A stretch of 64,000 nt of DNA from a virus: positions 62,001 through 126,000 of IMG/VR virus record IMGVR_UViG_3300046167_000825. The stretch is one strand, 5' to 3'. The position numbers and the translations under genes were made by a program. How positions within the stretch are numbered: the stretch's first letter is position 1; each line of letters starts with the position of its first letter. The notes below the pieces were generated by a model that was given only the letters and a program-made list of their open reading frames with translations, had not been told where the DNA came from and did not search any database. Positions 24,761 through 62,998 of the stretch are shown here, piece after piece.

Positions 24761-25354
24761 ATGACTATACTATCCATAAATCAAGGGGATTGCTTGGAGC
24801 ATTTGACAACGATGCCAGACGGTTCTGTTGACAGTGTATTGTGTGATCCACCCTATGGGTTGAAGTTCTTCTCACACAACGGTGGGTTTGATAACATAGG
24901 GAACGCCACCCAACAGAAAGAATGGCATCGTGAATGGGTGACACACGCATATCGGCTGTTGAAACCCAACGGTGTTATCAAAGCCTTTTCTAGTCCACGA
25001 ACTCTGCACCATCTGTTGGCGATAATGGTGGAGATCGGCTTTGAGGTGTCCGTAGATTCTTGGTTGTATGTGTCTGGGCGACCAAAGACCATTGATGTGG
25101 CAAAGAGTATTACGGCTTACGAACTAACGGGTTCTTCCTATCAAGGGAAGTTCCACGAACTATCCAAAGGACACAAGAGGTCGAAACTAGACATAGACGA
25201 CTATGTGAATCGAGGGAAGTTCTTCACAAAGGGGCATCAAGAAACCCTAGATTTTGAACTAACCGAGAACGGTCAGAAATGGGATGGATGGCAGTACGGA
25301 TTGAAACCAGCATTTGAACCAATAATTATGGGCTATAAAGGAGCAAAACAATGA
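24761..25354 (+). CDS. DNA methyltransferase, catalytic first module only
   Basis: 197 residues matching the N-terminal third of phage DNA methyltransferases of the DPPY type (adenine-N6 or cytosine-N4). Visible parts are the start LSINQGDCLEHLTTMPDGSV, the catalytic motif IV VLCDPPYGLKF (DPPY at 29-32), LLKPNGVIKAF, the conserved loop LYVSGRPKTIDVAKS, and the end YGLKPAFEPIIMGYKG. The SAM-binding FxGxG motif, normally C-terminal in this permuted order, is absent, so the chain cannot be a complete enzyme alone. Its stop overlaps the next gene (ATGA), a paralogue of the same module that carries an intein. Confidence 0.8.
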   Translation: MTILSINQGDCLEHLTTMPDGSVDSVLCDPPYGLKFFSHNGGFDNIGNATQQKEWHREWVTHAYRLLKPNGVIKAFSSPRTLHHLLAIMVEIGFEVSVDSWLYVSGRPKTIDVAKSITAYELTGSSYQGKFHELSKGHKRSKLDIDDYVNRGKFFTKGHQETLDFELTENGQKWDGWQYGLKPAFEPIIMGYKGAKQ

Positions 25355-27261
25355 CAACATTAACACTAATGAATGGCGATTGTGTCGCCAAGATGAAAGA
25401 GATGGCAGACGAATCTGTGGATGCTGTTCTGTGTGACCCCCCGTACGGACTGAAGTTCATGAACAAGGATTTCGATGATTTGGGTGAGGGGAAACAACAG
25501 AGAGAGTGGCATGTCCAATGGGTGAAAGAAGCCTTTCGAGTTCTGAAACCGAATGGGGTTATGAAAGCCTTTGGGGGAACTAGAACCTACCAACATCTTC
25601 TTGCAGCAATGGCAGAAGTGGGATTCTCTGTTGACCTTTCTGTCTGGGCATACGGATGTCTATCGGAAGACACCGAAATACTTACGGGCGAAGGGTGGGT
25701 TGAACAATCAAAACTCAATAATGGTTCTATGGTTGTGTCCTATTGTATAGACAAGGACACTTATCAAGTGCAAGCCGTTGAGGAGGTAGTTCGATATGAA
25801 TACAAGGATACCGCTTACAGAATACAATCAGATCATACAGACCAAATCGTGTCCCGAAACCATCGTTGCATTGTTGAACGAGAGGGAGAAAGAACTTTTC
25901 TTTTCGCAGAACACTTGCAAGCAAACGAAGTCGTACCCTTTGTGGAGAGTGTGTCGATACGAGGGTTGCGAAACGATCTTTCAAACGGATACAACACGGC
26001 ACGGGCTAAGAAAGAAACTCTGTTCGACCATTCGAGCACACTATCCGACAAAGACTTGCAAGGGGTGTCACAAGGAGTTTCAAACCAGAGAGAAAACAAC
26101 AAAGTATTGTTCGAGGGCATGTCGACCACCTACATGGGTGACGAAAGTATGCAAGGGGTGCAACAAAGAGTTTCAAACAAAGAGATCCTCACAGACTTGG
26201 TGCAAGCGAGAATGTATGACACTGCCGAAGATCACAAAAGAGTGTCAAGGTTGTGGGAAAGAGTTTCAAGTACCAGATGGGAAAGTGGGGCGAGCAAGGT
26301 TGTATTGCAAGCAAGAATGTCAGAGGAAACCAAAGGTGGAATTGACTTGTTATGTCTGCCAAAAGGTGATCCTAGTGAGAGCAAGAAGATTAGAGCGAGC
26401 AAAAAATCCAACTTGTTCAAGGCAGTGCAACGGAGTTCTGAGGGGCGAGGAATGGAAAGCACACGCTCACAAGGGGCGGGCGAACTGGTCACAAGAGAGC
26501 GAACAAGCCTTAGTGGAGAGAATGACGGGAAGCACCAACCCAGCGTGGAAGGGTGGGGTGACCTATCGCAATCGCAAGGGGAACTACATAACTCAGAGTA
26601 TCGCTTATGTGAGATGCCCAACCGAGTACACCTCAATGGCGAGGAAAGACGGGTATGTGATGGAACATCGTTTGAAAGTGGCACAAGCAGTTGGCAGACC
26701 ACTGACGAGAACCGAATGTGTTCATCACATCAATCACAACGCAGAGGACAATCGGTTGGAGAACTTGATGTTGTTCAAGAACAATCGGGATCACAAACTG
26801 TACGAAGCACATGGGAAACCCGAACCACTTTGGCAACCGTCACCCCAATAGAGTACGAGGGCATTGTATGGTGTGTGAAAGTACCAACGGGTGCTTTTGT
26901 CGCTAGACGGAATGGCAAGGTCTTTGTTACGGGGAACTCTGGCTTCCCAAAATCCCTGAATATAAGTAAGAAACTGGACTCAAGACATAAAGCCCGAACG
27001 GGTGAGGAAGGGGCTATCATTGGTTTCACGAAAGGAGTTGGTGGCGAGAACATCAATGATATCGTGGCTGGTAAAGAAGTGCGAACCACAGATGAAGAAG
27101 GTGGCAAAGGTGTGGGTGCTTACGGTACGGGTGCGAAGCAAGTAGCCGTTGATGTTCCCGTCAGAGAGTGGGTCACAGACGAAGCGAAGACTTGGGAAGG
27201 CTGGGGCACGTCTTTGAAGCCAGCCTTTGAGCCAGTGTGTGTAGGATACAAAAGAGTATGA
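25351..27261 (+). CDS. DNA methyltransferase first module interrupted by an intein
   Basis: A 636-residue precursor with an AAAGGAG site. Residues 1-102 and 530-636 are the extein halves, together 209 residues, and align with the gene at 24761: DPPY at 29-32, VLKPNGVMKAFGG, then VWAYG joined to SGFPKSLNISKKL, and the end WGTSLKPAFEPVCVGYK. The intein occupies residues 103-529. After splicing, the extein is again only the first module of a permuted methyltransferase, without the FxGxG motif. The intein frame is open throughout although it contains an entire HNH gene in another frame. Splicing is predicted from motifs. Confidence 0.85.
   Translation: MTTLTLMNGDCVAKMKEMADESVDAVLCDPPYGLKFMNKDFDDLGEGKQQREWHVQWVKEAFRVLKPNGVMKAFGGTRTYQHLLAAMAEVGFSVDLSVWAYGCLSEDTEILTGEGWVEQSKLNNGSMVVSYCIDKDTYQVQAVEEVVRYEYKDTAYRIQSDHTDQIVSRNHRCIVEREGERTFLFAEHLQANEVVPFVESVSIRGLRNDLSNGYNTARAKKETLFDHSSTLSDKDLQGVSQGVSNQRENNKVLFEGMSTTYMGDESMQGVQQRVSNKEILTDLVQARMYDTAEDHKRVSRLWERVSSTRWESGASKVVLQARMSEETKGGIDLLCLPKGDPSESKKIRASKKSNLFKAVQRSSEGRGMESTRSQGAGELVTRERTSLSGENDGKHQPSVEGWGDLSQSQGELHNSEYRLCEMPNRVHLNGEERRVCDGTSFESGTSSWQTTDENRMCSSHQSQRRGQSVGELDVVQEQSGSQTVRSTWETRTTLATVTPIEYEGIVWCVKVPTGAFVARRNGKVFVTGNSGFPKSLNISKKLDSRHKARTGEEGAIIGFTKGVGGENINDIVAGKEVRTTDEEGGKGVGAYGTGAKQVAVDVPVREWVTDEAKTWEGWGTSLKPAFEPVCVGYKRV
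25781..25798 (+). promoter_or_regulatory. Shine-Dalgarno and start of the nested HNH gene
   Basis: AGGAGGT at 25781-25787 followed by 8 bases and ATG at 25796, wholly inside intein coding sequence. It is among the strongest ribosome sites in the window and decides the start of the out-of-frame HNH gene. Confidence 0.8.
25796..26851 (+). CDS. HNH homing endonuclease nested out of frame in the intein
   Basis: 351 residues in the +1 frame relative to the methyltransferase/intein. Four Cys-x2-Cys ... Cys-x3-Cys zinc-finger-like repeats are visible: C88/C91/C105/C109, C119/C122/C136/C140, C150/C153/C171/C175 and C185/C188/C207/C211. A weaker fifth lies at 53-76. NPAWKGG precedes the HNH core: MEHRLKVAQAVGRPL (E290, H291), CVHHINHNAEDNRLENLMLF (H310, H311, N319, N323). 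This core is homologous to the free-standing gene at 27330. The stop at 26849 falls just before intein block F, so the gene fills the space of an endonuclease domain. It should cut intein-less alleles; the target is inferred. Confidence 0.88.
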   Translation: MNTRIPLTEYNQIIQTKSCPETIVALLNEREKELFFSQNTCKQTKSYPLWRVCRYEGCETIFQTDTTRHGLRKKLCSTIRAHYPTKTCKGCHKEFQTREKTTKYCSRACRPPTWVTKVCKGCNKEFQTKRSSQTWCKRECMTLPKITKECQGCGKEFQVPDGKVGRARLYCKQECQRKPKVELTCYVCQKVILVRARRLERAKNPTCSRQCNGVLRGEEWKAHAHKGRANWSQESEQALVERMTGSTNPAWKGGVTYRNRKGNYITQSIAYVRCPTEYTSMARKDGYVMEHRLKVAQAVGRPLTRTECVHHINHNAEDNRLENLMLFKNNRDHKLYEAHGKPEPLWQPSPQ

Positions 27262-27329: not shown

Positions 27330-27941
27330 ATGGATTGTGTGTGTAAGGGCTGTGGGAAAGACTTTCGTGTTTCTCCCAGTGTTATCCGAAAGGGTGGTGG
27401 TAAGTATTGTTCAAGGGCTTGCACGAAAAAAGGTGAGAACCGAGAGTGTCCTACATGTGGTTCGCAGTTTTATGTCAAGAACGCAGAAATCAAGAGGGGC
27501 TATGGCACATACTGTTCGAGAGAGTGTGCCAACCCAGCACGAGGATTGAGTGGTGAAAACCATCCTCAATGGAAGGGTGGTAAGTACAAGCATGGTGACG
27601 GTTATATAATGGTGCGTGTAGGCACGGATAAATACGAACTAGAGCATCGTGTAGTGATGGCGAACCATTTGGGTCGGGAACTGAAAACCCACGAGCATGT
27701 TCATCACATCAATGGTGTGAAGGATGACAACCGTATAGAGAATCTTGAACTGACTACGGCAAGCCAGCACACGAAAGAGCATCACGCTCCCAAGAAGGAT
27801 TTATCGACTTGGATGGCAGTCGCTTGTTTGAGTTGTGGGAATGTCTTCGCTGAACGGAAGAAAAAGGTAGAGAGAAACCCGAACTGTTTTTGCAACAGAG
27901 ATTGTTATATCGCTGGCAAGAAAAAGAGAGTTGTGCAATGA
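27330..27941 (+). CDS. free-standing zinc-finger HNH endonuclease
   Basis: 203 residues from the ATG at 27330 (site AAAGGAG); upstream in-frame ATGs overlap the methyltransferase end and lack sites. Two Cys4 repeats (C5/C8/C27/C31 and C40/C43/C62/C66) are followed by NHPQWKGG, the HNH core YELEHRVVMANHLGREL (E105, H106) with HVHHINGVKDDNRIENLEL, and a third Cys4 unit at about 166-192. The core matches the nested HNH gene 0.5 kb upstream. A homing endonuclease placed right behind the intein-bearing gene could promote mobility of this cluster; that is inference. Confidence 0.87.
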   Translation: MDCVCKGCGKDFRVSPSVIRKGGGKYCSRACTKKGENRECPTCGSQFYVKNAEIKRGYGTYCSRECANPARGLSGENHPQWKGGKYKHGDGYIMVRVGTDKYELEHRVVMANHLGRELKTHEHVHHINGVKDDNRIENLELTTASQHTKEHHAPKKDLSTWMAVACLSCGNVFAERKKKVERNPNCFCNRDCYIAGKKKRVVQ

Positions 27942-28225: not shown

Positions 28226-28341
28226 CAGATTTTTGGAAAAAACTAGATGAGGCTTTCGCCTATATCTTTCAAACAAAGAAGAAAAATGACAATACTAAAA
28301 TTAATGAAAGGCGATTGCCTCGAAAAAATGAAGAACCTTGA
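28222..28341 (+). CDS. possible 39-aa leader peptide
   Basis: An ATG overlapping the preceding stop (ATGA) opens a 39-codon frame (MTDFWKKLDEAFAYIFQTKK and on) that ends 56 bases inside the methyltransferase gene starting at 28286. Translation through it would bring ribosomes to the weak methyltransferase start. The coding signal is slight and the product has no known domain. Confidence 0.3.
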   Translation: MTDFWKKLDEAFAYIFQTKKKNDNTKINERRLPRKNEEP

Positions 28342-29980
28342 AAGTTCTTCTGTCCCCTCTATCTTATGCGACCCACCTTACGGCTTGGAGTTCATCACTG
28401 AACTAGAAGGGAAATCACGGAACTTGATGAACCCCACTAGCGAAGCAGATATCAAACGGAAAGAAGACTATGGGAACTCGTACGCTGGGCGTGCCTCCAA
28501 CCTTCCCGATTTGGGTAAGTTCGGACAGTATGGGAAAGGGGTACAAGAGTGGCACAAGGGTTGGGTTGGGGCTTGTCATAGGGTATTGTCAGAAGACGGC
28601 TCGTTGATGGCTTTCAATTCCAGCAAGACCTCTCACCGAATGATAGCCGCTATGGTCGAACTAGGGTTTCACATTTCTATTGATGCTTGGGTATATCTGT
28701 CTGGGATGCCCAAAGCACGAGACTTAGGGGCTGGTGTAGGTTGGTATACAAACTTGAAGCCCTCTTATGAACCTATCATTGTGTGCCGAAAACAAAAAGG
28801 AGAAACTATGCACAAATCACATTTAATTTATATCGGACGGAAGCCTTTGAGCGAGAGGAACATCGCAGAGAATGTTTTGAAGCACGGGACGGGTGCGATG
28901 AACATTGATGCTTGTCGAATAGGTGACGAGGAGCGAACTTACACGGGAAGTGGTGAATCTCAAATGAGATACAATGACGACCGTGCTGGTTTGGCAGATG
29001 GGAGAGGAAAAGAACTTGAGTTCACGGTAAAAGGTCGATGGCCCGCAAACTCTATCTTCTCTAGTTCATGTGCCAAGATTCTTACAAAGCAGATTGGGGC
29101 AGAGGCTTCCACTTATTTTTTCATTTCTGAGGATCGTTTTGATAACCACAATTCGTATAACAACAACAAGGAGAACACTATGAATGTACCATCAGATTTA
29201 TTAGACTATTTACACACGATGATTACCCCCACACATGTGGGAGGGGAAAGTCTCATCATCCAAGAGGGCTTGAACGATCACGACTTCAGCCAATACACCG
29301 ACAATCAATGGCACGGTTGTATCGCTGTTGGAACACCGACAGAGGAAACAAGCAAGGAACTTATGAGAGTCATGAAGGCTGGTGCTCATTTGATGTTGAT
29401 AGCCCCCGAAGAAGAACCCACTGGTTATAAGGGTGCTTGTCAGATTGAGGACACGGGATTTGAAATCAGAGATTCTATATTTTGGGCGAGAGAAACCGAC
29501 CCAGAGAATCCCAACTTCATGTACATGCCAAAGGCTTCACGGAGTGAGAGAGAACTAGGCACAGAGCATTTGAAAAAAGTCAGTGGTGCTGAAGCCGTTG
29601 ATCGGAAAGAAGGTTCTGCTGGGATGGACAACCCCCGTGCTGGTGCTGGTAGAACAGCCACAGAGATTGGTAATTTTCATCCGACTGTCAAGCCCATTGG
29701 GATTATGGAATGGTTGGCTCGTGATGTACCAAAAGGTGCGACAGTTCTAGACCCATTTATGGGTTCTGGCACTATGGGTATCGCTTGTGTGAAGACGGGA
29801 CACTCTTATATAGGCACAGAGATTGACGAGAGTTACTTCCCTATTGCAGATGCTCGTATCCGTCATTGGAATGAAACCTATTGTGCTTGGGATAGTGCTG
29901 AGGTCATTTCTGACCTAGATGAGGAAGAGACAGAGGATGTCCTAGCCCCTATCGACTTGAACAGTTTCTTGGGTTTTTAG
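28286..29980 (+). CDS. complete DNA methyltransferase built of three modules
   Basis: 564 residues. Module 1 (1-174) has the catalytic CDPPYGLEF (29-32), VYLSGMPKARD and LKPSYEPIIVCRK. Module 2 (from Met 175) has IYIGRKPLSERNIAENVL, GAMNIDACRIG and GRWPANSIF, the target-recognition part. Module 3 (from Met 299) ends with PTVKPIGIMEWLARD and the SAM-binding LDPFMGSGTMGIACVK (489-496) and IGTEIDESYF. This is the permuted order of DPPY-type amino-methyltransferases. Both internal Mets have strong in-frame ribosome sites (28797, 29168), so the gene looks like three fused genes. An extra domain (about 299-400) lies between modules 2 and 3. Start at 28286 has a weak AAGAAG site. Confidence 0.85.
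   Translation: MTILKLMKGDCLEKMKNLESSSVPSILCDPPYGLEFITELEGKSRNLMNPTSEADIKRKEDYGNSYAGRASNLPDLGKFGQYGKGVQEWHKGWVGACHRVLSEDGSLMAFNSSKTSHRMIAAMVELGFHISIDAWVYLSGMPKARDLGAGVGWYTNLKPSYEPIIVCRKQKGETMHKSHLIYIGRKPLSERNIAENVLKHGTGAMNIDACRIGDEERTYTGSGESQMRYNDDRAGLADGRGKELEFTVKGRWPANSIFSSSCAKILTKQIGAEASTYFFISEDRFDNHNSYNNNKENTMNVPSDLLDYLHTMITPTHVGGESLIIQEGLNDHDFSQYTDNQWHGCIAVGTPTEETSKELMRVMKAGAHLMLIAPEEEPTGYKGACQIEDTGFEIRDSIFWARETDPENPNFMYMPKASRSERELGTEHLKKVSGAEAVDRKEGSAGMDNPRAGAGRTATEIGNFHPTVKPIGIMEWLARDVPKGATVLDPFMGSGTMGIACVKTGHSYIGTEIDESYFPIADARIRHWNETYCAWDSAEVISDLDEEETEDVLAPIDLNSFLGF
28796..28810 (+). promoter_or_regulatory. internal in-frame Shine-Dalgarno and ATG, start of module 2
   Basis: AAAAGGAG followed by AAACT and ATG at 28808, in frame with the methyltransferase. 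It falls exactly at the junction of modules 1 and 2, where free-standing copies of module 2 also begin. Confidence 0.65.
29168..29182 (+). promoter_or_regulatory. internal in-frame Shine-Dalgarno and ATG, start of module 3
   Basis: AAGGAG, six bases, ATG at 29180, in frame with the methyltransferase. It follows the end of module 2 (TYFFISEDRF) and precedes the SAM-binding half, so that half could be made separately. Confidence 0.65.
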
Positions 29981-60800: not shown

Positions 60801-62998
60801 TGGATGACGGAGTGCGGCTCATCTTATTCAAGAATCTTCTATTTGATACAGATGTCTCTGGGAAGAAACACCTCGTCAATCTCACGAAGGAAGTTCTGAA
60901 TGGGAGTTTAAGTTTTGAGGAGGCTGACTGGGAAACAACGGCTCTCTACTCTCAACTGAATGACATATATCATATAGCACATGGAACAATTGCCCCTAGT
61001 CCTATCCCTTGTGATTATCAACCCCCCAAGTTTGAAGCCAAGAAAGATATCACACCGAATGGTCAAGGGTTGTCCATTGAGTTCCGACTCCAACAAGTGA
61101 AGTGGGATGGGGGTCTTAGCGGGACTTCGCTGCTGTTCCAGCAAGGCGATTATTCCGTGCTAGTTCAGTTCGGAAATAATGAGTTCACAGTAGGTTTGCC
61201 AACGGGCGTGGTAAATACATACCCTTTCATGCACATAGGGGAATACCACACCTACCGATTGGTTCTCGATGTCATAACATCAACCTTAAATATCCTTGCA
61301 GACGACACCCTTGTAGATTCATTAGCCCTCCCTCTGTTCGCTGACATCTCTGACCCAAGTGTTGTTATCACCAGTGAGGAAGAGTGCTTGCTAGACTATC
61401 TCACGGTTCTCCAAAGACCCAACGCCACAGCCCAACGAACAATCGGTGTGTGGAAACAAGGAGTTCAGACAGACTTAGACTCGTGGGAAGTGCCAAGAAC
61501 AGATTCCCATTTCCTCCCCAACAGTTCAAGCATTTCCGTGATAGAAGAAATGGACTGGCGAGAGATGATGGATGTACGCCTCCACCGAGATGCTGGGTGG
61601 GGTTTGACCTTGTATCGGACAGACTTAGCCCCACCACCTTATTTTGATGGTGTGTGGGCAACCGAAACGACCGACCCCTCTGCTGGTTGGATTAACATCG
61701 AATATGATGATTTACCCCCGTCAGAAAGTCCAGTGGGAATGATTTCTTTTGGGGCTGACATTGGGTACTCCGTGTGGCGACTGTTCCGTTATCGTATGTA
61801 CCTCACAGCGAAGGAAGATTGGAGTTCGCCCCACCACATGATTCTCAACCAAGCAAATGTGCTGACCTCCGATGAGATACACAAGGACATCACAATTGAG
61901 TTGTGTGAAGTGGAGAGTCTTTCCAACCAAGTGATTAGTTTAATCCCGACTGATTTGTTTGCAGAGAATATCTTTGTGGTGCGAGTGGAAGACATCGTTC
62001 TCCCTAGTTCGATGTGGGAGTTCGATGAACAATCTCAGAGTATCTTCGTGAAACAGCCATTGGGTTTCACGGAGGGTAAGCCCTACATTGGATTGGTTCA
62101 TAGCCATGAGGGAATCTTGATGGTGGGGGAGTATCACATTGAGGATGCGAACCAAGAGATTCTTGAGATACGGGAACATTACACAGCCCACATCTCTTAC
62201 GCCCCCTCTAGGACAACTCGGACAAAGACTTATCTGAAAAACCAAGAGGTTCTTTCTTCCATCACTTTATTGAATGAAGGAACACCTCCCGTACCCAAGT
62301 CGCAGATTGCAGATGCCATCAGAGAAGTCGTCTTTGGTTCGGGTGTTAATATAGTTCAAGATGTCTTGAACAATGACCCCGACTTCTTCTTAAATGACCC
62401 TTCCAAGTCTGTCCAGTTCAGAGATCCCAATGAAAGATATGAAAACTTAGAGTTCATTGAGAAGGAACTCGGTTCAGATGAACCCATCACGATTGCTTGC
62501 GATGACTTCAACGAGATCGATATCAGAGGCTCAAAGTTCTCAGAGAATGTGGAGGTCGTGAAGCAAACCCCTCAACAAATCGGTCATGTCATGCACTTAT
62601 CTGGTGGGGCATATCTAGGGAAGACACTCGGGGGGACAAATGCCGTTCTGTACCCCAATGCTCCCGCCACACAAGTAGGGAAAGGATCAGTCCAACGACA
62701 ATGTCTTATTAAACTTAGTGTGAAATCTATTCTGAGAGGGAACACGGAAGAAGCCCTAGAAGAAACAATCCCAACCCCAAATGACGGGGGGTCTTGTGAT
62801 ATGGTTCTCACAGATTATGCCAACCTACACACGCACATCGCTCCTTGGGGTACTATGATAGCGTTAGGTCAGAACTCATTGTTGTACGGTGCTAGTTCTG
62901 TTCAACCAACTGGCGTGCCAAGTTCTGGCACGGGGGTGACCCTTGAAGGAGGACTCCCTTTACCTCAACCAACCACAACTACAATAACTGTTCCATAA
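57833..62998 (+). CDS. very large virion protein (1721 aa), tail fibre or baseplate
   Basis: Start at 57833, where the ATG overlaps the previous stop; an ATG at 57821 lies inside that gene. The N-terminus is Gly/Tyr-rich (GISTYGYGGYGVAPFGATNP). Several beta-sandwich segments follow, including ISSARAVDGNTLEIFFSADV-type fibronectin-like strands (read as VSSARAVDGNTLEIFF) and lectin/laminin-G-like stretches (GLSIEFRLQQVKWDGGLSGT; YHTYRLVLDVITSTLNILAD). The C-terminal ~250 residues look like a separate domain. It could link fibres to the baseplate or bind a surface glycan. No catalytic motif recognised. Confidence 0.7.
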   Translation: MGLFLPSNGISTYGYGGYGVAPFGATNPPTQQSLISGFGQSLIFGGVSTFPAPPIASVDGFGGHFGLGVYGTRGTSLTRVSSARAVDGNTLEIFFSADVLEDASYYAVASYKILETLGAACDITSVEKGRVGELGLSSVIVKHNGTTMGGYYQVLVENLTDTSHNPILPEEGSKAFFCGLRPTTEVSAESIDGNVIITFNEGIESGGDDTSNYLWEYDYPVNVTVTNISQPQENKVELELQGLTHTDYLLTLGRLPSILFSDNVGSNYVFTGLGEASRVPSGLLISKEQNDAFLVRFPDEHGDIQPNSAYTVELSFDLSTPHIRPYYLTEPVMEIFVSDGLVEIGLVFKEIDGVGVIEMNSGLYSTQVISDWRRTRQDLKLIRNERYGFYALEVNGACLLSIPLGSLTGIDVHGVGVSFNFNPYYRLLHFLIEKVIFTASQTIYTTSGNFIHNSVLNIRGNSTSVQEILLTQHGPLTKGWGDATPATDQDVAVFVNGVAVEVEAVNPYEGAIQPLIPIPLMPSGLIDVRVDYKWHKSPIMQMAGLNTEGLTLNKWDRANHLHDTRPNNSSRGKENIGRFPFGVVLPFGERKQPKLVSHRYIGFERDYSAVLNSPTTMMLNQDPHRVAIPELHEMVNGEVHSLDGNSTPSDNGWGVSEISANINGDGTFTTNGKGQFYKEIDFAFPKSVVFASRFQVKEYELTGVFTNVAFGVKTNHFLHMVGMLEINGVQHIGLCTNFDEPHLQDSWNIGLEQTVDLISQNQFKIATEDYPLVSSLATLRFQVFNGTQVGTYTVIEATPLTTGETIVEFSPPMSAPYTEWENSPVTLNFEHLFSDFNQTYRLVSNTESREVQLFIGGAVSGLAFEDVVETTVVRTRDAFNFTEGVFSGGLLSNGYKNTTIDYSLIQFGTTPKNALLYSRGHVISEHFSQVPSDWFVLGDYGQAIIDVDRMDLRGQGGYTFHRIEPFFQKKVISDTDLFFQVDEGDIEVRVDDGVRLILFKNLLFDTDVSGKKHLVNLTKEVLNGSLSFEEADWETTALYSQLNDIYHIAHGTIAPSPIPCDYQPPKFEAKKDITPNGQGLSIEFRLQQVKWDGGLSGTSLLFQQGDYSVLVQFGNNEFTVGLPTGVVNTYPFMHIGEYHTYRLVLDVITSTLNILADDTLVDSLALPLFADISDPSVVITSEEECLLDYLTVLQRPNATAQRTIGVWKQGVQTDLDSWEVPRTDSHFLPNSSSISVIEEMDWREMMDVRLHRDAGWGLTLYRTDLAPPPYFDGVWATETTDPSAGWINIEYDDLPPSESPVGMISFGADIGYSVWRLFRYRMYLTAKEDWSSPHHMILNQANVLTSDEIHKDITIELCEVESLSNQVISLIPTDLFAENIFVVRVEDIVLPSSMWEFDEQSQSIFVKQPLGFTEGKPYIGLVHSHEGILMVGEYHIEDANQEILEIREHYTAHISYAPSRTTRTKTYLKNQEVLSSITLLNEGTPPVPKSQIADAIREVVFGSGVNIVQDVLNNDPDFFLNDPSKSVQFRDPNERYENLEFIEKELGSDEPITIACDDFNEIDIRGSKFSENVEVVKQTPQQIGHVMHLSGGAYLGKTLGGTNAVLYPNAPATQVGKGSVQRQCLIKLSVKSILRGNTEEALEETIPTPNDGGSCDMVLTDYANLHTHIAPWGTMIALGQNSLLYGASSVQPTGVPSSGTGVTLEGGLPLPQPTTTTITVP

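Follow-up and report, generated by a model that had tools for sequence, protein, structure and literature searches.

An HNH endonuclease gene nested out of frame within an intein of a giant-phage methyltransferase

A DNA methyltransferase gene of a giant phage carries an in-frame intein, and within this intein an HNH endonuclease gene is nested in the +1 reading frame. The gene lies in the window, by which we mean the whole 64,000-nt stretch analyzed, taken from a 289-kb virus record (IMG/VR IMGVR_UViG_3300046167_000825, positions 62,001 to 126,000). The arrangement is confirmed as real, with no sequencing artefact involved. We consider it very probable that this is a mobile intein whose splicing and homing functions reside in two overlapping genes. 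Descriptions of large inteins have the endonuclease and the splicing domain form one polypeptide, or have the intein encoded by split genes. What we describe is likely, in our assessment, to be a third and widespread mobile-intein architecture, in which the endonuclease is overprinted and has its own ribosome binding site (mostly also its own sigma-70 promoter), block B and a helix are encoded by the same nucleotides, and elsewhere the host frame only supplies a spacer free of stops.

From the evidence below we infer splicing, expression of the HNH protein, cleavage, and a homing cycle, as follows. The methyltransferase frame would be read straight through, giving extein, the half of the splicing domain with blocks A and B, a disordered spacer, the half with blocks F and G, and extein again, and the two-half Hint domain would excise the intein together with the spacer. 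The HNH endonuclease would be made as a separate protein from an internal +1 start with its own Shine-Dalgarno sequence, probably helped in many relatives by an internal promoter. This enzyme would then cut intein-free methyltransferase alleles near YG|SGFPK (joined site GCATACGGA|TCTGGCTTCCCA), and repair of the cut allele would copy the intein in.

The methyltransferase gene, its intein, and the nested gene

The methyltransferase ORF (25351-27261; all features of the locus are on the plus strand) encodes 636 aa and is uninterrupted. Its N-extein (25351..25656) comprises 102 aa ending in ...SVWAYG, of which residues 23-101 match Pfam N6_N4_Mtase (E=1.3e-9); the methyltransferase also matches the DNA methyltransferase family phrog_67 (E=9e-26). 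The intein follows at 25657..26937 as 427 codons (C1-N427) in frame with both exteins, and is delimited by alignment, profile, AF2 and Foldseek results and by empty alleles. As the sequence-only reading had stated, blocks A, B, F, and G are all in the methyltransferase frame, which the exact ORF and an alignment of 41 inteins bear out. In that alignment, block A (CLSEDTEILT) occupies 25657..25686. Block B (TDQIVSRNHRCIVER, with the core TDQIVSRNHRC) is at 25837..25881, under HNH codons about 14-29, and is double-coding, as judged from the alignment and from constraint in both frames (see below). Blocks F and G (PIEYEGIVWCVKVPTGAFVARRNGKVFVTGN, 26848..26937) read VWCVKVPTGAF...VFVTGN, followed by Ser at +1; they are defined by the alignments and by a synonymous ratio of ~1.0 from codon 396 onward. 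The C-extein (26938..27261) runs from SGFPKSLN to ...GYKRV and a stop, and intein-free homologues continue ...YG|SGFPKS... across the junction. Empty alleles with exact YG|SGFPK junctions were found in related jumbo-phage loci (L006, L008-L011).

Several lines of evidence indicate a genuine intein. In the 41 inteins (alignment A1), C1, the block B residues His69 and Arg70, and the terminal T425-G426-N427 are invariant, as is the Ser at +1 in 27 sequences (alignment A2). The residue set of a cis-splicing Hint-type intein is thus present (N-terminal Cys, block B His, C-terminal Asn, and +1 Ser). Compared with PDB sequences, the intein profile finds the AceL NrdHF intein 6zgq (E=4e-8), and the same entry is the best Foldseek match of the AF2 model (E=2e-5, prob 1.00), whose top matches are inteins, hedgehog domains, and bacterial intein-like (BIL) Hint domains. 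The model has a confident Hint fold at residues 1-100 and 390-427; in these two splicing halves, residues 1-90 and 391-427 are all beta with pLDDT 94-98, and pLDDT is <50 for most of residues 115-361. By its predicted structure, then, the splicing domain in the window is a real Hint fold. Against the intein reading, the Pfam intein model PF14890 matches the window only weakly, at 19.9 bits compared with a curated cut-off of 35.8; its match is broken up by the long spacer.

Inteins usually have His in the penultimate position, ahead of the C-terminal Asn; here it is Gly. This could be taken to favor a dead or vestigial intein that is no longer spliced, its spacer kept as a tolerated loop as has been proposed for the ShiLan domain (see below). 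Close HNH relatives that sit in the same host gene with no splicing domain (L048, L054, L060, L066, and others) point the same way, given that splicing is evidently not always needed. However, a dead intein would be expected to lose C1, the block B His, the C-terminal Asn, and the +1 Ser, all of which are invariant, and we rate loss of splicing as quite improbable.

The nested HNH gene occupies 25796..26851 (351 codons, +1 frame), as supported by Pfam HNH_3, by PHROG matches, and by host-frame synonymous constraint. A Shine-Dalgarno sequence, AGGAGGT (25781..25787), lies about 9 nt 5' of its ATG, as read from the sequence and supported by statistics over homologous starts, and a TAG stop in the HNH frame (25787-25789) lies two codons 5' of the ATG. 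The HNH stop (26849-26851) coincides with intein codon 398, within the TPIEY that opens block F. In the host frame, most of the region beneath is a stop-free spacer (intein residues about 101-390, 25957..26826), predicted to be disordered from its pLDDT and further characterized by the synonymous test. It had been claimed from the letters alone that the HNH gene stands in the exact place of an in-frame endonuclease domain, from just before block B to just before block F. The substitution holds, but the gene is not confined to the space between the blocks: it overlies all of block B (HNH codons about 1-50) and extends into the opening of block F.

The HNH ORF matches Pfam HNH_3 above its cut-off (E=1.4e-6) and PHROG HNH families (down to E=2.5e-20). 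The HNH domain itself spans HNH residues 291-331 (26666..26788), where it is marked by HNH_3 and by invariant residues; across the 34 sequences of the HNH alignment, E290-H291-R292, H310, N319, and N323 do not vary. Upstream of it, four tandem zinc-finger-like units (25958..26271) repeat a 29-nt core four times at a spacing of 99/93/93 nt. Since these steps are multiples of three, both frames survive duplication. The coordinates, length, and frame originally given for this gene are exact. Within the HNH alignment, the extra zinc-finger-like units occur in the window, partly in L015, and in no other sequence. Two confident helices are predicted within HNH residues 1-38 (7-38), in the HNH-frame reading of the codons of the block B region. 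The whole HNH model, which is bead-like and multi-domain, has no significant Foldseek match in the PDB, and the HNH profile has no match among PDB sequences; the HNH call thus rests on Pfam and PHROGs. On the basis of these matches, membership in the HNH family, with zinc-finger-like and presumably DNA-binding units, is real.

A free-standing HNH endonuclease gene is located directly 3' of the methyltransferase (window 27330-27941; HNH_3, E=2e-12), and its product aligns with the nested HNH at 31% identity. The window also contains two more methyltransferase paralogues that lack an intein (24761-25354 and 28247-29980). Their sites read YV|SGRPK and YL|SGMPK, respectively, not YG|SGFPK, and perhaps such sequences would resist the HNH.

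Recurrence of the nesting and selection on both frames

Viral contigs were searched with the HNH protein alone, ignoring the host frame, which yielded 80 loci with 75 distinct HNH sequences. At 78 of the 80 loci a longer open frame encloses the HNH, and the +1 relation between the two never varies. A second set was assembled by picking inteins at the same site by their conserved C-terminus, whatever their endonuclease, and gave 78 unique inteins. The stop counts from 63 loci of this second set are not unbiased, because selection by the C-terminus needs an open host frame. The HNH core motif is in frame +1 in 61 of the 78, and this core-motif search found the HNH in frame 0 in none and in +2 in none. 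Among isolated phages, a search of the 50,697 phage records of INPHARED found the arrangement just once, in LR756508.1, the 484-kb record of an uncultured phage, which is unannotated.

These counts bear on the possibility that the HNH was originally an in-frame domain, as endonucleases are in most known large inteins, and that an assembly error or a real indel shifted its frame. The sequence-only reading had itself named a sequencing indel as what would overturn it, and had proposed a comparison of reading frames among inteins of the same site. That comparison has now been made, and the in-frame endonucleases at the site are LAGLIDADG enzymes, never this HNH. Recurrence of one and the same +1 relation in about 60 unique inteins, with no other frame seen, excludes an indel. 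Moreover, every relative would have needed compensating indels at both flanks, and the host frame is free of stops in 73 of 73 nested loci. We give this explanation practically no credence.

The host frame might instead be open by composition bias alone, with the HNH gene having broken the methyltransferase so that there is no read-through. The read-through segment is indeed of low complexity and predicted to be disordered. However, 73 of the 75 distinct HNH relatives have no host-frame stop, compared with about 602 expected in total (within-gene synonymous shuffles), and the two exceptions, which are the un-nested loci L027 and L072, have 16 and 17, near chance. The third frame of the HNH-picked relatives contains 802 stops versus 736 expected. 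When the HNH of the window is synonymously recoded, a mean of about 19-26 host-frame stops results, and never the zero observed. Blocks F/G and the C-extein, past the HNH, are conserved as well as the N side is. Composition bias as the sole cause is vanishingly improbable.

Selection was also assessed by how often two sequences with the same host-frame residue at a position also have the same codon, relative to the expectation from third-base usage in the exteins. In the host frame this ratio stays at 1.0-1.1 in both exteins, block A, and blocks F/G, and is 1.6-4.5 across almost all of the HNH ORF. Its boundaries are sharp. The ratio jumps from 1.21 (codons 41-45) to 1.62 (codons 46-50), where the HNH starts at codon 47, and drops from 1.96 (codons 391-395) to 1.06 (codons 396-400), where the HNH stops at codon 398. 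The mirror measure, on synonymous sites of the HNH frame, is 2.1-2.6 over HNH codons 1-30 (above block B), 1.0-1.3 for most of the HNH body, and 1.4-2.0 for the last 20 HNH codons. High mirror ratios at both ends imply that both frames are fully constrained along about 50 codons at block B and another 15 or so near block F. Over the HNH core, synonymous sites of the HNH frame are near-neutral, which implies that the host frame needs little there beyond the absence of stops, and between the shared ends this freedom from stops seems to be nearly all that is required of it. Judged by these ratios, both frames are conserved coding sequence under selection.

Proposed expression and spread of the nested gene

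An ATG or GTG is present at the homologous HNH start in 34 of 62 relatives. With about half lacking one, initiation at the homologous ATG in every relative was rejected, and this lack also speaks for another possibility, namely that the HNH is produced by programmed ribosomal frameshifting as a fusion of methyltransferase-N, intein-N, and HNH, with no internal initiation. Against frameshifting, the window has its HNH-frame stop just upstream of the ATG with AGGAGGT over it, the HNH frame opens just 1-5 codons 5' of the start in eight loci of the ATG/GTG group, and host-frame synonymous constraint begins at the HNH start codon. Frameshifting as the source of the protein is very unlikely in our view. 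A Shine-Dalgarno match of at least 5 nt occurs in a minority of the ATG loci (8 of 28), versus about 4% at control positions, and that of the window is one of the two best among ATG loci.

For 39 of 63 relatives, the highest-scoring sigma-70-like promoter places its -10 element at intein nt 85, about 48 nt 5' of the HNH ATG. The best cases have TTGACA-N17-TGnTATAAT at intein nt 62-90 (L034, L129, L021, L059, L023, L019, and others). Promoter scores fall on synonymous recoding (combined z 7.5, although the loci are related and z therefore overstates their independence). Nothing promoter-like was found in 12 LAGLIDADG inteins of the same site (z -1.4). For the window, the promoter scan did not support an internal promoter like that of its relatives, so that the HNH there would be translated from the methyltransferase transcript. 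The string TACCATAAAGCC is conserved at intein codons 17-20 in most inteins with a nested HNH and is absent from the window; its third bases are fixed even where the residue varies.

Other inteins occupy the same site. About a dozen have an in-frame LAGLIDADG domain instead (e.g., L168, LAGLIDADG_3, E=1e-8), and there are also minimal inteins (L169, of 140 aa, and L170). The LAGLIDADG intein of L148 matches the methyltransferase intein of phage Bobi at 100% identity and its ShiLan counterpart at 98.5%; the methyltransferase intein of Bobi, Lilac, and ShiLan (gp65) is the subject of PMC9957025. Nine loci (L142, L117, L119, L123, L125, L129, L141, L155, and L178) have one to four stops in the HNH-frame match and an open host frame; L142 and L052 are on the same contig. 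In the usual homing cycle, the endonuclease decays earlier than the intein. HNH-frame stops within an intact host frame fit this cycle, as decaying endonucleases.

For pairs of loci, identity of both the splicing domain and the HNH can be about 0.8 where extein identity is about 0.4, and extein and intein similarity are hardly correlated (r = 0.14-0.17). The intein parts are thus far more alike than the host proteins, which indicates that the intein has moved laterally between divergent host proteins. This movement and the patchy distribution bear indirectly on the proposed cutting of element-free alleles with co-conversion.

The same HNH lineage, as placed by its tree, is also nested in the +1 frame of the same methyltransferase with no splicing domain present, between GFPKS and GTALKP. 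These intein-less nested loci ("type 2") include L048, L054, L060, L066, L067, L077, L085-L088, and L092. Of 24 intein-less inserts, 18 have in the host frame a CxC near one end and a CxxC (CxxCG[KL]P) near the other, and in a separate scan 73 of 79 methyltransferases had neither HNH nor CxC/CxxC motifs. The placement of these cysteines suggests that a zinc clasp may hold the unspliced loop of the intein-less inserts. Elsewhere, the HNH gene is free between two separate methyltransferase halves, with a host frame full of stops (L072, 2113-3661), or antisense between two methyltransferase gene halves near the SGFPK site (L027, 2998-3717).

Such settings raise the question of whether the HNH is a separate mobile gene, parasitic on intein or methyltransferase, that would not mobilize the intein itself. 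The intein-less, free-standing (L072), and antisense (L027) occurrences of the lineage are in its favor, as is the only moderate correlation between HNH and splicing-domain identity (0.39). On the other hand, the HNH takes exactly the position of the LAGLIDADG endonuclease domain in inteins of the same site, and the HNH and the splicing domain have been transferred as a pair between divergent host proteins. We regard an independent parasite as unlikely, and a mobile intein with two overlapping genes remains the reading that we prefer.

Significance and comparison with known systems

About 350 double-coded codons, recurring in about 60 unique inteins, are unusual for same-strand overlaps in DNA viruses. 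If the proposed architecture is true, splicing and homing could be expressed and lost independently, and mobile inteins could separate splicing from spreading. It opens questions of how endonucleases are gained or swapped (one site hosts both an in-frame LAGLIDADG and an out-of-frame HNH), of homing-endonuclease expression independent of the host protein, and of the length of spacer tolerated by a splicing Hint domain. Genome annotation pipelines are likely to overlook the nested gene.

Known arrangements were considered in turn. A canonical large intein was rejected, as the HNH core motif is in frame 0 in no intein of the unique set. A split intein with a free endonuclease gene was rejected because there is one uninterrupted ORF. 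No group I or group II intron or other known RNA was matched by Rfam in the window or its relatives.

Split inteins of fractured genes have a free endonuclease gene between the fragments (cited in PMC3229294). The likeness is that the endonuclease is a protein of its own, encoded where the endonuclease domain would be. However, in fractured genes the intein is cut in two and there is no overlap, whereas here the intein gene is whole and the endonuclease is overprinted on it. Group I introns provide another parallel, in that homing endonuclease genes are nested in a self-splicing element and are translated separately. They differ in that it is the RNA that is spliced and that no open host frame has to be maintained. 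I-PfoP3I is an example of an HNH homing endonuclease in group I introns (PMC3428280).

Closer to hand is the LAGLIDADG intein in gp65 of Bobi, Lilac, and ShiLan, which shares the YG|SGFPK site and has a related splicing domain and near-identical F/G blocks. In that intein, by contrast, the endonuclease is in frame, and there is neither a nested gene nor a promoter-like sequence.

The sequence-only reading had treated the arrangement as not known to be described. For the intein, this stands: in the literature within reach (mostly non-subscription), a scope that excludes the preprint 10.1101/2025.01.02.630785 ('non-canonical architecture', actinobacteriophage inteins), we came across no intein described as having its endonuclease out of frame. 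For the nesting as such it does not stand, given that out-of-frame HNH insertions in phage methyltransferases, explicitly with no splicing domains and in another frame, have been published (PMC11855218; Applejack, PMC12613952). They include the ShiLan domain, which is known from the mycobacteriophages ShiLan, Mantra, Filuzino, and others (PMC9957025, PMC11855218; Genes 2025). Like the intein described here, the ShiLan domain has an out-of-frame zinc-finger/HNH gene within a stop-free insertion, the methyltransferase that carries it belongs to the same family, and it is patchily distributed. Unlike it, the ShiLan domain has no splicing domain and its HNH is in the third (+2) frame, compared with a Hint intein, the +1 frame, and a double-coding block B here. 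The ShiLan insertion is also further downstream, between ...VVARKP and AFEPIVVARKP, and its HNH is about 28-31% identical to the nested HNH here. Identity with the ShiLan domain was rejected on the grounds of the splicing domain, the +1 frame, and the different site. The intein-less +1 cousins are the nearest analogues of the ShiLan insertions, yet they too have another frame and another site. Because one HNH lineage occurs both with and without an intein, it links the published and unexplained ShiLan-type insertions to inteins. What is new is thus a variant of the mobile intein, for which the ShiLan insertion is the closest, and a partial, precedent.
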